Shown piece after piece: positions 2,978 to 45,200 of a DNA stretch of 64,000 nucleotides. The DNA is taken from positions 1,240,001-1,304,000 of the forward strand of contig NC_063151.1 in assembly GCF_020921035.1 (NCBI RefSeq). The letters run 5' to 3'. Source of the DNA: Rhodamnia argentea (lineage: Eukaryota > Streptophyta > Magnoliopsida > Myrtales > Myrtaceae). The notes under the pieces were generated by a model. That model saw nothing but the letters and a program-made list of their open reading frames with translations. It ran no database searches and was not told the DNA's origin. The translations under genes were made by a program, and so were the position numbers. Each line of letters begins with the position of its first letter. The first letter of the stretch is position 1.

Positions 2978-4486
2978 TCGTACGTAATTGGTAGCCATTT
3001 TTAGCGATTTTACATGTAATTTTGAGCTTGATTTGTTATTCGATGGACATGATCAAGCGAACCCATTTCCGTAATGTCGAGATCCATTGAATTGACGCCT
3101 AGGTTTCCGTCGAATTGGCGTCCAATTTCTATGTTGGAGTCGAAAGTTCCATAACCGGTCATATGAGATCCGGCAAGAGGTTGAAGACAACCTCCAGCAC
3201 TACAGACAAGTCTCACGTGTGGTTGAACCATGCATATATAGCTAACTTGTAGGTTCTTTTCACATATTGAGCATCTTTGGAATTCGCAGTAATTTGTCAT
3301 TCAAGTCCAAAACTAATTAGAGATCTACCTAAAGAAGTCTCAGAGGTAGGATCAAGTAGGAAATTCGACCAGTTAAGAAGGCTCAGATATGCAAATGTTC
3401 ACATCATCGACTCATTAATACCATTTTGGCTTGAGCTGAATACTTTCTTTTGCTCCTCTAGTATACACATTTGATATGTTTAACTATTTGATATGCATTC
3501 GGAACCCTTGGTTTCTGGACCAAACGATCCAATCAACTCGGAAGGATCGGCTTTGATTTGCAAGTTCAAGTTATCCGCTCTCAGCTTGGAAATACCATTA
3601 GATGTAGCTGTAGTCGTGCCGCGATTGCAGTCCTAATATACGGTAACACACATATTTTAGAGCTACATTGCCTTCAAACATGGCTGGGTAGCTTCTTAAA
3701 ACTAGCTGTAAAATGCTGCAGCCGTTGTCGAACACCTTTCAAAAGCTGTGACGTTCTTCTCCGCAGTAAGATTCTCTGCAAATCTGGGACGAAGAGAAGA
3801 GAAGGTTGAATACATTCAACAAAAGGAGCAAAAAAAAAAAAACGAAGAAAGAGGTACAACATAAAGAAAGTGGAAAGCCAGCTTTAGAGGGGAATAAGGG
3901 AGGTGCTTCATTCAGTCTTTAGGAGACAGGATTTGAGTGGTGTGGTAACTGCAGAATCTGCAAGACAGAGATTTACTCTAGGCTTTGTCACCAGTTCCTT
4001 TCTGGATAAAAGAGAAGGTGAAAAGAGCCAAAAGGCATCGCGCATTTGCAAGTGAGACTGGTTGTCTTTGCAGTGCGGTGGGCGGAGTTGGAGATGGAAA
4101 TGATTGAAGAGGGAGAATAGAAAGCGACGGAAATCGGTTTCCGTTCCGATCCCACCTAAGAATCGGGAATCGGCCAGTAGAATTGGTTTCCAATTTCTAG
4201 GACTAGGAATCGATCCATTTGGAGTGGACCAAACCGACCAGTCTAGTCCGATTCCTGGACGGTCCAATGAAACTGGTGGAAGATGGAGGGAAGATATTCA
4301 ATCATTGAGGAAGGGAATGGGCTTCCCATCGCTTCCGATAGAACAATTAAGAATGCTGATTGTCTTGAAGGTGGTTTAAGAATAGGTGGATCAGTTCGTC
4401 GGAATCAAAGAAACGAGAAGCAAATGTTCAAGGTAGTGATGCCCATGTACAGAGCCTTCTCTTGCATTTGAAAGATTCTGAACTTC
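2978..4486. other. intergenic DNA, no gene recognised
   Basis: There is a 96-codon open frame on the minus strand (3010-3300) with six cysteines, but I recognise no family in it. At 4100-4270 there is a stretch rich in 'ggaatcg/cggttc' words. Similar words recur at 6230-6340, 14740-14850 and 21600-22080, which marks it as dispersed repeat. Confidence 0.45.
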
Positions 4487-4495
4487 TAAAAATAA

Positions 4496-5652
4496 GGGAA
4501 AATTTTAAAAAAGGGCATGAAGTGGTCTCGTTTTCTTGAATAAAGGTTTAGAGTGAACATCGTTTCAAATAAGGGCTGAAGTGCTCAAATCATTTCAAAT
4601 AAGAGCCTAGTTGAAGGACATTTTTGTCTTTTAATCTTTTAACCTTTTCTTTTCTGTTTTTATTTTTTTCTCCTCCCCTCCCCTCATGTTCATCATCTCC
4701 TCCAGCACGTCTTCTTCGACGGGTCCTCCATCCCTCGCACGAACGGGAACTCCCGCTTGTTGTGCAGCACGTGCGTGATCGCCGCCGCTACGAGGTTGCT
4801 CATCGCCAGCGCCCCTCCCACCGCCACGCACCTCGTCCGCCCATCCATCGACCGCATCTACACCTGCTCCGGGATGCCGGGCTCCGCCAACGTGGCCCGG
4901 CACACCTCCCGGAGCTGAAAGTCGAACCTGTCTGTCTCCAGAGCGTCGGCGCGCAAGAACAAGAGTGGTGCCGAGCTCGTCGGGTCGTAGCACGGCACCG
5001 GGACCGGCTTCGGCGTGTCCCTCCGCGTCGGCTCCCTCTTCGTACCGTCACTGAAGGACTCCTTCATGAGCCTCTCTAGCGTGGCCGTTGCCGCGATGTG
5101 GAGCTGGCGGAGCCCCCCGTAGGAGCCTCCGCAGGAACCGCCCGAGCCGGAGACGAGTTGCGAGCGGTAGAACTTCCGGCCGTGGTCGGCGAGGAACTTC
5201 CACGTGTCGTCATCCTAGAAAAGCGGGCGGCTGTAGTCCTTTGTGGAGAAGAGCATGGAGGTAAAGATGCTGGCGTCCGGGTTGTCGGACTTCAACTTGA
5301 GGGCATGCTCCGGATAGGCGAGGGCTTTGCCAAGGAGGATGCCCCGCAGCCGCCCACGATCGACCCACCCCCTCTCTCTCTCTCTCTCTCCCCCGTTGAG
5401 TGCATCAGTAGATGGAAGATGAAGACGACCATGCATTCAAGTTAGAAGAGATGATGAGCAGGAGGAGAGGGGAGGAGAAAAAAAGAAAAACAGAAAAGAA
5501 AAGGCCATAAGATTAAAAGACAAAAATGTCCTTCAGCTAGGCCCTTATTTGAAATGATTTGAGCATTTCAGGCCCTTATTTGAAACGATATTCACTCTAG
5601 GCCCTTATTTGAGAAAACAAGACCACTTCGGGCCCTTTTTTGAAATTTTTCC
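4496..5652. mobile_element. Pack-MULE: Mutator-like element carrying captured gene sequence
   Basis: Seen directly: inverted repeats of about 205 bp (4496-4703 and 5446-5652), the left beginning GGGAAAATTTTAAAAAAGGG and the right end reverse-complementing to GGAAAAATTTCAAAAAAGGG. A perfect 9-bp direct repeat, TAAAAATAA, flanks it at 4487-4495 and 5653-5661. Long inverted repeats with a 9-bp target duplication are the signature of Mutator-like elements. Each repeat holds subrepeats around the phrase 'caaataagggc'. No transposase is present, so the element is non-autonomous. Its GC-rich interior (4704-5445) is a captured piece of a patatin-like phospholipase gene, described separately. Confidence 0.9.
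4722..5364 (-). pseudogene. captured patatin-like phospholipase (pPLAIII type) fragment
   Basis: On the minus strand, conceptual translation gives patatin-family segments in the right order. They are a degraded anion-hole stretch (VDRGRLRGILLGKALAY), then MLFSTKDYSRPLF, TWKFLADHGRKFYRS, KPVPVPCYDPTSSAPLLF, RADALETD, FDFQLREVCRAT and MSNLVAAAITHVLHNK. The gene cannot be functional. The segment that should hold the nucleophile elbow is missing between NPDAS and IFTSMLF. A stop follows RPLF (about 5215). The catalytic-Asp motif (DGG/A in the family) reads AVGGAL. A CT microsatellite (about 5381-5399) marks the 5' border. The piece lies wholly between the MULE inverted repeats, so it was acquired by the element. 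The class III assignment is by recognition. Confidence 0.82.
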
Positions 5653-5661
5653 TAAAAATAA

Positions 5662-25563: not shown

Positions 25564-27882
25564 TCAAGTTCTGGACGTCAATGCCTCCGAGGTCAGGCTT
25601 GTCGCCACAATGGGACTATGGACCACGTACTTGCCGCTGTCGTCCATCCAACTCACCGAACCAAACACCACAGTCCCTTTCATCTGTTTCGGTCCTTCTA
25701 TTGTCAGCTTATACATCAACTTCTCATGCTTCTCTTTGAATGTCAATTTATCCGGGGCGGCACTGATCTTGAATCCCTCTATTGGAGTCACCTTCGCGAC
25801 GTAGGTTGACGGCCCGTCTCCCACATTTGTCACCGTCCGGAAGAATTCTTGAGCCGTCGGAGAGCCCGAGCTGTTTGGACTAAAGTAGGCAATGAAGGAA
25901 GGGTAGTTAAGGTCCAGTGATGAGTCTGAACAATTGAAGGAAGATGACCCGGTGACCGTTTGAATTTGCTTGGATGTGTAATTCATGGCGCACATGAGGT
26001 TGACGTAGTCTTGGGGGGTCGCATCGTATATGAGTCCGGGGTCTAATGCCTTGTTCGGATCGACGTGGCCAGCTCCCATGGCTAGAGGGCTCGCTGGTTC
26101 GTAGTTATTGCCGACGTCTTTGATAGGGGCATTGGTGCTATCCGTTGAGTATGATGTAGTCATTATGGCCGACCGGATGGCTGCAGGGCTCCACTCCGGG
26201 TGTGCTCCTCTTAGGAGAGCAGCCACTCCGGCAATGTGCGGGCACGACATGGATGTCCCTGACAAAAGGTTGAAGTCGTTAAATAGCTGATGCGAGTTCA
26301 CCACACCCACTGGCTGGTTTAGAGGCCACCCAGCCAGGATCATCGAGCCAGGGGCCAAAATGTCGGGCTTGAGGACGACTGGACAACTCAGGGACGGGCC
26401 ACGGGAGCTGTAGCTCGTTACGCTTGGAGCAGGCTTGGTACCGATTATTGTTTTCCGAAATTGAATACTTGCTGTTGGCCCAGACGAGTTCTTGATGTAT
26501 GCTTTGATAGTTTCGCCATCGGTAGGATTCAGAAAGATTGCCGGGAATGAGCTCTGGATGAAGAACTCGAGGTCAGAGCTGTTTGTTATGAACACTCCAC
26601 CAGCAACTTTAGCTCCCCGGACATTGTCGATCTGTTCGCTTGTACTGTCACCCTTGTCCTCGCACACAACAATGTTCGTGTGGCCGATCTTGCTCAACTC
26701 GTCTGTATTGTTGCACGCGTCCAGAAACACAATTGGAGACTCACCCAAGGATGGGTCGCCTGGAAAGAGAGTCGAGCCTACAATCGAAGCACCGCTGCCA
26801 AGAGTAATAGTTCCTCCAAAATCACGGTCCATGTCACCGGCAGCAACAGTTATGACCCAGGGAGTCCCATTGTGCAGGGTCTCGAGAAAAGGCCCCTCAT
26901 TTCCCGCCGATGTTGATACAAAGACCCCTTTCTCCATGGCTGCATATGTGGCTATAGCAATTGGGTCTGCATACAATGGAACGCCATCAAGGCCGAATGA
27001 CAAGGACAGGACATCGACACCATCAGCGATCGCCTGATCAATTGCGGCAATAATGTCTGCAGAATATGCGCCTTCGTCCCACAGGGCCTTGTACATGGCC
27101 ACTCGGGACCGTGGAGCCACTCCCTTGGCGGTTCCTGGAGCATAGCCAAAGAAAGATGCTCCCTCGACGTAGTTCCCAGCAGCCGTGGTGGATGTGTGCG
27201 TGCCGTGTCCGTCAGTGTCACGAGTAGAGTTCATGGAGAAGGTAATGTTGGGATTTTTGGCTACCAGGGCCTTGTTGAAGGACCGGGCTCCGATGAGTTT
27301 CTTGTTGCACAGCGAAGCGTTGAATTGGGTCCCGACCTCGCATTCGCCTTTCCATTTCGATGGAATCGCTGTCATTCCGTCGTCATTGAAGCTCGGGATT
27401 TCCGGCCAAACACCCGTATCCACAAGCCCAACTATGACATCCTTGCCATAATCCGAAGTAGGCCATGCCCCAGAATTAGAATTCAGGCCAAGGAATTGGG
27501 TTGAGTGAGTCGTATCGGCTTTCACAGGCAAATCCTTCATTGAAGAGATGTAGCCTGGGTACTTCTCAAGGGCCTGGAGCTCGCTAGGAGAGAGACTAGC
27601 ACTGAAACCCTGGACGACATGAGTGTAGCTGTAGATGAGCTTAGAAGACGCGGGTACGGCACCAGCTCTGTCTCTAACTTTAGGATTAGGAGGACTTCGC
27701 ACTAGTGACGAAACAGTGGCCAAGTACCAGCTATGGTGGTCGGAGAAGGCTTTGGGCATGAAGGATAAGTCCATGTGGATAATATAATTGTCGGATTGCT
27801 CAAAACTCGGGACGAAGCAGAAGATGATCAGGGCTAGGAGCCTCGTCACGAGCGAAAGAACAAAAACAGCCATGGCAAGCAA
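25564..27882 (-). CDS. secreted subtilisin-like serine protease (SBT1 group), intact
   Basis: A single uninterrupted exon encodes 772 residues, the normal length for plant subtilases, which are often intronless. A hydrophobic signal peptide covers about residues 1-29. The I9 propeptide inhibitor follows (YIIHMDLSFMPKAFSDHHSW to about residue 130). All four active-site residues are visible: Asp155 (LVDTGVWP), His226 (DTDGHGTHTS), oxyanion Asn328 (STSAGNEGPF) and Ser544 (LSGTSMSCPHIAG). A PA-type insertion lies at about 365-465. The C-terminal fibronectin-III-like domain runs from about 655 to the end. Many N-x-S/T sites fit secretion to the cell wall. The start could also be Met4. The propeptide wording is closest to the SBT1.9-like group, and the substrate is not predictable. 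It is the only intact member of a cluster that includes two pseudogenes. Confidence 0.95.
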   Translation of the reverse strand: MLAMAVFVLSLVTRLLALIIFCFVPSFEQSDNYIIHMDLSFMPKAFSDHHSWYLATVSSLVRSPPNPKVRDRAGAVPASSKLIYSYTHVVQGFSASLSPSELQALEKYPGYISSMKDLPVKADTTHSTQFLGLNSNSGAWPTSDYGKDVIVGLVDTGVWPEIPSFNDDGMTAIPSKWKGECEVGTQFNASLCNKKLIGARSFNKALVAKNPNITFSMNSTRDTDGHGTHTSTTAAGNYVEGASFFGYAPGTAKGVAPRSRVAMYKALWDEGAYSADIIAAIDQAIADGVDVLSLSFGLDGVPLYADPIAIATYAAMEKGVFVSTSAGNEGPFLETLHNGTPWVITVAAGDMDRDFGGTITLGSGASIVGSTLFPGDPSLGESPIVFLDACNNTDELSKIGHTNIVVCEDKGDSTSEQIDNVRGAKVAGGVFITNSSDLEFFIQSSFPAIFLNPTDGETIKAYIKNSSGPTASIQFRKTIIGTKPAPSVTSYSSRGPSLSCPVVLKPDILAPGSMILAGWPLNQPVGVVNSHQLFNDFNLLSGTSMSCPHIAGVAALLRGAHPEWSPAAIRSAIMTTSYSTDSTNAPIKDVGNNYEPASPLAMGAGHVDPNKALDPGLIYDATPQDYVNLMCAMNYTSKQIQTVTGSSSFNCSDSSLDLNYPSFIAYFSPNSSGSPTAQEFFRTVTNVGDGPSTYVAKVTPIEGFKISAAPDKLTFKEKHEKLMYKLTIEGPKQMKGTVVFGSVSWMDDSGKYVVHSPIVATSLTSEALTSRT

Positions 27883-27925
27883 TTTAAGGGAGATGATTTC
27901 AGGGACACAGCAAGAAAGCTCGTGC

Positions 27926-27934
27926 CTTTATATA
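27926..27934 (-). promoter_or_regulatory. TATA box of the subtilase gene
   Basis: On the minus strand this reads TATATAAAG, 44-52 bases upstream of the first ATG, leaving room for a very short leader. The same TATATAAAGGCA core stands upstream of the subtilase pseudogene at 33133, which supports common ancestry of the two promoters. Confidence 0.7.
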
Positions 27935-33071: not shown

Positions 33072-33080
33072 TATATAAAG
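33072..33080 (+). promoter_or_regulatory. TATA box upstream of subtilase pseudogene 1
   Basis: TATATAAAG stands about 55 bases before the ATG at 33133 and is followed by GGCAACAG, close to the sequence at the intact gene. A surviving promoter means the pseudogene could still be transcribed. Confidence 0.6.
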
Positions 33081-33132
33081 GCAACAGAGCTTCAGCTGTA
33101 CTCTAGAGCTAAGCTCACTTCCATCGCTGATC

Positions 33133-35300
33133 ATGGCTGATCACGTTCATTCATACGTGATGAGGCTCGTAATTCTCACCATGTTCTGCTTCACCTCGAC
33201 AATGGGGCAATCCGACACATATATCATTCACATGGACTTATCCTCCATGCCCAAATCCTTCTCTGACCACCATAGCTGGTACTTGGCCACTGTTTCATCA
33301 CTAGCTCCAAGCCCTAATCCAAAAGTTAGAGCCAGATCTAGCGCCACACCCACTTCTTCTAAGCTCATCTACAGTTACACTCATGTCCTCCAGGGTTTTA
33401 GAGCTAGTCTCTCTCCTAGCGAGCCCCAGGCCCTTAAGAACTCTCTGGGCTACATCTCTTCCAGAATCGAGCTTGTGGATTCGGGTGTTTGGCCCAAAAG
33501 CCCGAGCTTCAACGACGATGGAATGACGGCAATCCCATCAAAATGGAAAGGCGAATATGAGGTCGGGACCCAATTCCAACACTTCGATGTGCAACAATAA
33601 GCTCATCGGAGCCCAATACTTCAACAAGGCCCTCGTAGCTGAAAATCCCAACGTTACAATCTCCATGAACTCTACGCGGGACACTAGTGCTCACCGCACA
33701 CACAAATCCACCACGGCGGCTGGAAATCATGTTTTGGATGCCTCCTAATTTGGCTGTGCTCCAGGTACTGCGTCTGGCGTGGCTCCACAGGCCTGAGTGG
33801 CCATGAACAAGGCCCTGTGGCACGAAGGCCATCGTGCTGCTGACATCCTTGCTGCAATCGATCAAGCGATCATTGACGGTGTCGATGTCCTGTCCTTGTC
33901 AACAGGCTTTGACGGTGTTCCATTGTATGAGAACCCTATTGCAATAGCCACATATGCAGCCACACAGAGAGGGATTTTTGTGTCATTGTCGGTAGGAAAT
34001 GATGGGCCTTTCCTTGAGACCCTGCACAATGGAACTCCCGGGGTCATAACTGTTGCTGCAGGGGAAATAGACCGTGACTTCGGGGAACTGTTACCCTCGG
34101 CGATGGAGTTTTGATTGCAGGCTCGACTCTCTTTCCAGGCGACCGTCCTCGAGTGAATCTCCAATTGTCTTCATGGACGCATGCAACAATACAGTCGAAT
34201 TGGAAAAACTCAGTCCCTGTGATATTGTTGGGCCTGTAGTGGATCAAGTCCACAATGTCGATGGAGCAAAAGTCGCCAGCAGTGTCTTCATTGTAAACAG
34301 CTCCTACCCCTACTTCTTCAGTTTTTCCTCATTCCGTGCGATCTTTTTGAATCCGCAGCTGGTGAATCCATCAAAGGTTACATCAAGAACTCATCCGACC
34401 CAAGAGCAAGTATCCAATTTCAGAACACACTCATCGGTAGCAAGCCTGCTCCAAGCTTGGCAGACTACAGCTCTCGTGGCCCATCCCCAAGTTGCTCAGT
34501 CTTCCTGAAGCCCGACATTTTGGCTCCTGGCACACTGATCCTGGCTGGGTGGCCTCAAGTAAGCCAGTGACTGAAGTCGACTCCTATCAACTATTTAACG
34601 ACTTCAACCTCTTGTCAGGAACGCCAATGGCATGCCCACACATAGCTGGAGTGGCTGCACTCCACACCCCGAGTGGAGCCCTGCAGCCATCCGGTCAGCC
34701 ATGATGACTACATCGTGTACAATGGATAGCACAGGTAGCCCTATCAAAGACATTGGTAATGATTACAAACCGGCGAGCCCTCTAGGCATGGGATCTGGCC
34801 ACATTGATCCGAACAAGGCATTAGACCTGGGGCTCATGTATGACATGACGCCCCAAGACTATGTCAACCTCATGTGTGCAATGAAATACACATGGAAGCA
34901 AATTCAAATGGTCACCAGGTCATCTTCCTACAATTGTTCAAACCCTTCACTAGACCTGAACTACCCTTCCTTCATTGCCTTCTTTAGTTCAAACAGCTCG
35001 GACTCTCCGGTGGTGCAAGAATTCTACAGGACGGTGACGAATGTGGGAGATGGGGCGTCAACCTACACAGCAAAGGTGAATCCGATGGAGGGATTCGAGG
35101 TCAGTGTTGTGGCTGATAAATTGACATTCAAAGAGAAGTATGAAAAGTTGAGTTTATAAGCTGACAATAGAACATCCAAAACAGATGAAAGAGAGTGCTG
35201 TCTGGTTCTCTTAGTTGGATAGGCGATGGGGCAAGTATGTGGTAAAAAGTCCCATTGTTGCCACAAACCTGAGCTCGAAATCATTGACGTCCACAGCTTG
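33133..35300 (+). pseudogene. subtilisin-like protease pseudogene 1
   Basis: It is near full length in extent and closely related to the intact neighbour. It starts properly (ATG, hydrophobic signal, YIIHMDLSSMPKSFSDHHSW propeptide). Breaks seen, in order: an in-frame loss of about 40 codons that fuses the propeptide end (GYISSR) to the Asp region (LVDSGVWP), and a surplus base near 33575. Next are stops near 33747 and 33796, frame changes near 34095 and 34140, and further small indels around 34370-34500 and 34660. The catalytic-Ser motif reads SGTPMACPH, so Ser is Pro. The His region reads [10 protein letters not shown] instead of DTDGHGTHTS. A stop lies near 35157. The 3' flank to about 35590 is still similar to that of pseudogene 2. 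Confidence 0.92.
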
Positions 35301-43885: not shown

Positions 43886-45200
43886 ATCTTTCTTTGGCTA
43901 CGCTACAGGAACTACCTCTGGTGTGGCTCCAGAGGCCCGAGTGGCCATGTGCCATGTAGAAGGCCCTGTGGGTGGAAGACGGATATGCTGCTGATATCCT
44001 TGCTGCAATCGACAAGCGATCATTGATGGTGTCGATGTCCTGTCCTTGTCATTTGGCGTTGAGGGTGTTCCATTGTATGAGGACCCTACTGCAATAGCCA
44101 CATATGCAGCCATAGAGAGAGGGATCTTCGTATCATTGTCTGCAGGAAACAACGGGCCTTTCCTCGAGACCGTGCACAACGGGATTCCCTGGGCCATACT
44201 GTTGCTGCAGGGGATATAGACCGTGACTTCGGGGGAACTGTTACCCTCGGCGGCGGAGTTCTGATTGAAGCTCGACTCTCTTTACAGGCGACCCGTCCTT
44301 GAGTGAATCCCCGATTGTCTTCATGGGCGCATGCAACAATTCAGTTGAATTGAAAAAACTCGGTCCCTCTGATATTATTGTGAGGACAAGAGTGGGACTG
44401 TATCGGATCAAGTCCACAATGTCGATGGGGCAAAAGTCGCCGGTGGTGTGTTCATAGTAAACAGCTCCTACCCCAACTTCTTCCGTTTTACCTCATTCCC
44501 TTCGATCTTTTTGAATCCTGCAGCCGGTGAAACCATCAAAGCCTACATCAAGAACTCATCCGACCCAACAACAAGCATTCAATTTCGGAAAACATTCATC
44601 GGTGGCAACCCTGCTCCAAGCTTGGCAGACTACAGCTCTCGTGGCCCATCCCCAGTTGCCCGGTCGCCCTGAAGCCCTACATTTTGGCATGGGATCTGGC
44701 CACGTTGATCGGAACAAGGCATTTGAACCCGGGCTCATATACGATGCGACGCCCCAAGACTATGTCAACCTCATGTGTGCAATGAATTACACATTGAAGC
44801 AAATCCAAATGGTCACCAGGTCATCTTCCCACAATTGTTCAAACCCTTCCCTGGACCTGAACTACCCTTCCTTCATTGCCTTCTTTAGTTCAAACAGCTG
44901 AGACCCTCCGGTGGTGCAAGAATTCTACAGGACGGTGACGAATGTTGGAGATGGGACGTCAACCTACACAGCAAAGGTGCATCCGATGGAGGGATTCGAG
45001 GTCAGTGTTGTGCCTGATAAATTGACACTCAAAGAGAAGTATGAGAAGCTGAGTTACAAGCTGAAAATACGAGGTCCAAAACTGACGAAACAGACTGTGG
45101 TGTTTGGTTCTCTTACTTGGATACGATGGCGGCAAGCATGAGGTCAAAAGCCCCATTGTTGCCACAAGCCGAAGCTCGAAAGCATTGATGTCCAAAGCTT
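43886..45200 (+). pseudogene. subtilisin-like protease pseudogene 2, truncated at the 5' end
   Basis: It starts abruptly inside the catalytic domain (FFGYATGTTSGVAPEARVAM), so the signal peptide, propeptide and the Asp and His regions are gone. Further breaks include indels near 43955, 44010, 44195 and 44270-44290. A deletion at about 44690 joins LKPYILA directly to MGSGHVDRNKAFEPG and removes the catalytic-Ser region. A stop lies at 44900 (NS*DPP), and a frameshift near 45125 affects the last domain. The C-terminal fibronectin-like part is otherwise well preserved (FYRTVTNVGDGTSTYTAKV). Confidence 0.92.

Follow-up and report, generated by a model that had tools for sequence, protein, structure and literature searches.

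Structure of the element

The window analyzed here is the whole 64,000-nucleotide stretch of Rhodamnia argentea DNA, which lies at positions 1240001 to 1304000 of contig C2 in its own genome (346.7 Mb, 74 contigs). Close to its start we found an element of 1,157 bp (window 4496-5652) with the following features, where C5 and L039 denote the locus described below:

4487-4495, no strand: left target-site duplication TAAAAATAA, exact 9 bp
4496-4702, + strand: left terminal inverted repeat, about 205 bp, first bases GGGAAAATTT
4722-5364, - strand: captured pPLAIII coding piece, corresponding to exon 1 of the C5 gene (L039:3557-4247)
5384-5459, - strand: captured piece from upstream of the C5 gene start codon (L039:4651-4725)
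5445-5652, - strand: right terminal inverted repeat, the inner 15 bp of which overlap the match to the parental gene
5653-5661, no strand: right target-site duplication TAAAAATAA, exact 9 bp

The perfect 9-bp duplication and the inverted repeats of about 205 bp described in the first-pass annotation were both confirmed, the former as exact matches at 4487-4495 and 5653-5661 and the latter as two arms that are 89% identical by BLAST and align as two ungapped blocks, 87% and 91% complementary. By eye, the stretch common to the left repeat and the sister elements extends to about position 4720. Long inverted repeats together with an exact 9-bp duplication are characteristic of Pack-MULEs, for which we used a target-site duplication of 9 to 11 bp as the criterion. 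The interior of the element is GC-rich, at 64% G+C compared with 41% in the window overall. Apart from about 40 bp, this interior consists of repeat or cargo, and the element carries no transposase of its own.

Elsewhere in the window we observed a subtilase gene (25567-27927, - strand; Peptidase_S8, 158 bits) with two inverted relatives, at 33079-35159 (+) and 43886-45122 (+), whose frames look broken.

The cargo and its parental gene

The minus strand of the interior contains one long frame with two in-frame TAG codons, and not the single stop that had been reported. This frame matched no Pfam family, patatin was not found when the translated window copy was used in Pfam and PDB searches, and scans of viral contigs and genome contigs gave no relative. 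Its identification as a patatin piece comes instead from the Patatin match of the parental gene and from three sister copies (C3:15804424, C10:17621642 and C10:10315652) that passed the Patatin cut-off in a six-frame search. The minus-strand patatin interior of the first-pass annotation was thus borne out through the parent, to which the cargo is 82.9% identical at the DNA level over 692 columns, and not by direct Pfam or PDB matches.

The search for a parental locus and for other copies proposed at that stage gave both. The parent lies at C5:3933051-3934222, with an open first exon, and was recovered among at least 114 DNA matches in the genome (40 of 1,780 candidates scored) as one covering the interior only. 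Within the surrounding 8.5 kb (C5:3929500-3938000, hereafter L039), the gene has an open 434-aa stop-to-stop frame that matches Pfam Patatin with 61.1 bits. Within the same 8.5 kb there was no inverted-repeat match longer than 60 bp, only matches to the cargo; the C5 locus is therefore a parental copy outside any element, the further feature expected for a Pack-MULE, and the proposed capture of a pPLAIII gene piece holds. A frame downstream of exon 1 (L039 1527-1886, - strand) is presumably a second exon. Patatin domains were also found in genes on C8, C1 and C9, and all four genes have G-x-G-x-G at the nucleophile motif, which we take to be the mark of group III (pPLAIII), as opposed to the G-x-S-x-G of other patatins. 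The region C11:19567500-19574000 contains a relative of the C5 gene that is incomplete and decayed (83% over 573 columns); its match to the C5 gene extends past the capture boundary.

The cargo was said to have lost all its catalytic features, which is only in part the case. Judging from its sequence, the parental gene may itself be a pseudoenzyme, albeit with an open frame, as its oxyanion motif at codon 81 reads DAGG instead of DGGG and its codon 277 specifies Gly where the catalytic Asp would stand. At this codon C5 and all 20 copies compared encode Gly and the C8 gene encodes Asp, so that loss of the Asp after the capture is ruled out. At the oxyanion motif, which is changed in the window copy, 0 of the 20 copies encode either DAGG or DGGG. 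What does belong to the window copy is the deletion of the nucleophile motif by a 45-bp in-frame loss, seen in no other of the aligned copy rows. Of the 20 copies, 6 retain all six C5 residues of this motif and 12 have one or two of them changed; in L061 the motif is partly deleted by a different, overlapping 75-bp loss, while L064 has a 44-bp loss just before it. The window cargo does not retain the oxyanion, nucleophile and Asp motifs in intact form, and it looks dead as a protein.

A probable single capture followed by amplification

A protein search of the genome (56 of 56 candidates scored, 57 matches) and the DNA search placed the cargo at 25 places, comprising 23 elements (the window copy and L044-L065) and two fragments (L066 and L070). 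Both capture boundaries are alike in 22 of the 25 loci, falling at 3552-3558 and 4723-4725 of L039, and L065, L066 and L070 have one boundary each. Long copies measure 1.44 to 1.63 kb and match C5 collinearly along some 1.17 kb that span the start codon and reach into exon 1, mostly at 83 to 87% DNA identity (77% for L064). The captured piece stops short of the end of the parental first exon, consisting of its codons 1 to about 310 together with about 240 bp that precede the start codon. In the short copies (1.16 to 1.23 kb, plus L063), among them the window copy, the middle 400 bp or so are absent, corresponding to 403 bp of the parent between the two cargo pieces. Later insertions were found within L053 and L063.

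In a tree of 24 rows (L053_1, all three L063 pieces, L066 and L070 were left out), the 22 element rows formed one clade beside C5 with a support of 91/89, which is moderate and under the mark for firm support, and ten short copies grouped together with 98/100. Exact 9-bp duplications flank 17 of the 22 copies in which both ends could be set (16 of 22 without L057; L051, L066 and L070 are excluded from the count, their two ends not being both set). L048, L061 and L063 have a duplication with one mismatch, and none was found at L064 and L065. When left and right flanks of different copies were paired as a control, 6 of 462 pairings were exact, the number yielded by the three copies that share TAAAAATAA alone. 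The flanks of these three copies differ and are unrelated, which rules out one duplicated insertion.

The shared boundaries, the clade and the duplications together indicate a single capture of about 1.17 kb that was spread by transposition. The cargo is therefore inherited family sequence and was not captured by the window copy itself, as had been supposed. Its presence throughout the family, at 25 places, partly bears out the refuting condition set in the first-pass annotation, namely that the same cargo be ordinary element sequence in every copy. Its status as a captured gene piece nevertheless stands, because the source gene lies outside any such element and related ends carry different interiors.

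Taken as a whole, the window element is very probably a Pack-MULE, a Mutator-like element that is non-autonomous and contains part of a gene, and belongs to a multicopy family. The capture would have taken place once, with gap repair or template switching bringing the gene piece into the element. At the junction between the patatin piece and the right repeat, about 6 nt (CATCTC, identified by eye) are common to both; this is suggestive of microhomology, although so short a match could be due to chance. Copies would then have been transposed by a transposase supplied in trans, and methylated and silenced by the host, and the element probably has no function of its own.

Mutation pattern and possible roles

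Substitution rates at the three codon positions were 14.6, 16.5 and 14.3% among 10 short copies and 6.6, 5.6 and 6.1% among 8 long ones, the only rows on which these rates rest, while between the C5 and C8 genes they were 23.9, 18.6 and 35.6%, with the third position highest. Rates among the copies are about equal at the three positions, and there is no sign of coding selection. Transitions were concentrated at CG and CHG sites, with 11.0 and 12.8%, respectively, in the short set against 3.1% at CHH and 3.8% at A/T sites, and 4.5 and 4.3% in the long set against 0.7 and 1.7%. CG and CHG values thus exceed those of CHH or A/T sites by a factor of about 2.6 to 6, the pattern that would be expected under plant transposon methylation.

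The first-pass annotation had proposed that the only likely role of the cargo, if it is transcribed, is to supply antisense or small RNAs against the parental pPLAIII genes, which for the gene on C5 would mean reduced expression. The idea is feasible by sequence, since 347 of 718 21-nt windows of the cargo lie within 2 mismatches of C5, with a longest exact match of 53 nt (52 windows and 26 nt for the C8 gene), and the other copies tested match C5 as well as or better than the window cargo. One report also discusses small RNAs against such elements that reach similar genes (PMC8903248). However, the branch leading to C5 bears little footprint of methylation in trans, with transitions at 0 of 131 CHG, 0 of 245 CHH and 2 of 211 CG sites, evidence that is weak given 18 changes in all and that is silent on methylation-independent silencing. 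The stem of the elements has 30 changes, including 3 at CHG, 3 at CHH and 7 at CG sites; because the numbers of changes are small, this contrast in decay between parent and elements is a weak one. The codon-position rates likewise reveal no constraint on the copies. We consider a regulatory role of this kind unlikely.

Still less probable, to the point of being very hard to sustain, is that the family encodes a useful patatin-like peptide and represents gene duplication by a transposon. Some copies do retain frames of about 200 to 260 aa, several of them without a stop, but, compared with C5, 24 of 26 copy rows contain one or more indels whose length is not divisible by three (counts that depend on one MAFFT alignment), and the two rows free of such frame-breaking indels are pieces (L063_1, 284 bp, and L066, 110 bp). 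The flat codon-position rates and the Gly at the catalytic Asp codon in all 20 copies compared point in the same direction. That the interior of an inverted-repeat element is merely patatin-like, without any capture, would fit the failure of the translated window copy to match patatin in Pfam or PDB but is practically dismissed by the collinear identity of the long copies to C5 over some 1.17 kb, which includes sequence upstream of the start codon.

Comparison with known Pack-MULEs

As a multicopy Pack-MULE the window element is unremarkable, its kind being well documented in plants, and its gene-piece capture is real. It had been singled out, for its clean borders and foreign cargo, as the best-supported novelty of the window. 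Multicopy elements make up 36% (481 of 1,337) of rice Pack-MULEs (PMC8277862). PMC4858842 describes the parental sequences of Pack-MULEs as GC-rich, PMC3310237 gives 100 to 500 bp for their terminal inverted repeats, and PMC8903248 treats a conflict between such elements and genes that is mediated by small RNAs. The family found here resembles the multicopy rice elements in its long inverted repeats, its GC-rich gene piece and its 9-bp duplications, which are distinct in several copies, and differs in that it comes from another plant, that its cargo is pPLAIII and that it was found at 25 places.

A close parallel is the tomato PM-ZIBP, in which one captured gene piece is present in 14 copies that group with the parental gene (PMC3310237). 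As in that family, one captured piece has been amplified here and the copies group with the parent. PM-ZIBP copies mostly have tandem inverted repeats (13 copies, against 1 with single ones), whereas ours have single repeats and are more numerous. The pPLAIII genes themselves are related to the family as the source of its cargo, which, unlike them, is broken. A direct search of one literature collection found no report of a Pack-MULE with patatin cargo, a literature search found none of a Pack-MULE in Myrtaceae, and a literature text search with the family peptides returned an unrelated match only.

Existing knowledge of Pack-MULEs is unchanged by the window element. Its family does provide a clean case of capture followed by amplification, in which one genome displays the parent, the boundaries, the subfamilies and the mutation pattern, and the copies are a neutral yardstick for judging the parental gene's own loss of the catalytic Asp.

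Other elements with related repeat ends

We counted 479 and 441 occurrences of the 21-base repeat end in the genome at up to 2 mismatches, against 0 for the control. MULE domains are abundant in the genome (150 of 474 candidates scored), and none of those scored adjoined a repeat end in a by-eye comparison with the ends listed, so that no autonomous partner with matching repeats was found among these. Nine fetched elements (L067-L069, L071-L075 and L085) have similar repeats around a different common interior, for which we obtained a polygalacturonase-type PDB match (E value of 0.0018) and no Pfam match. Another interior is common to L078-L080 and gave a HIRAN match below the Pfam cut-off (E value of 4e-4). 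Two more element groups with related ends were also seen (L076, L083, L084 and L087; L077, L081, L082 and L086), with no Pfam family over the cut-off in the one frame scanned for each, and L088 matched no other element compared.

These interiors raise the prospect of one MULE lineage acting as a serial capturer of at least three genes (pPLAIII, HIRAN-like and polygalacturonase-like), each carried to about 10 to 25 places, with the methylated-looking pPLAIII copies perhaps feeding small RNAs that act on the Asp-less parental gene, a combined reading that we regard as improbable. Nearly complete copies of the polygalacturonase-like interior occur at 10 places; its candidate parent is an open stretch at C3:32722616-32722951 (76% identity). 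The HIRAN-like interior has 15 matches in the genome and 12 protein matches, one of which (C7:10116364-10117121) lies within an open frame of 566 aa and is a possible parent; the interior presumably also includes an SNF2-like stretch.
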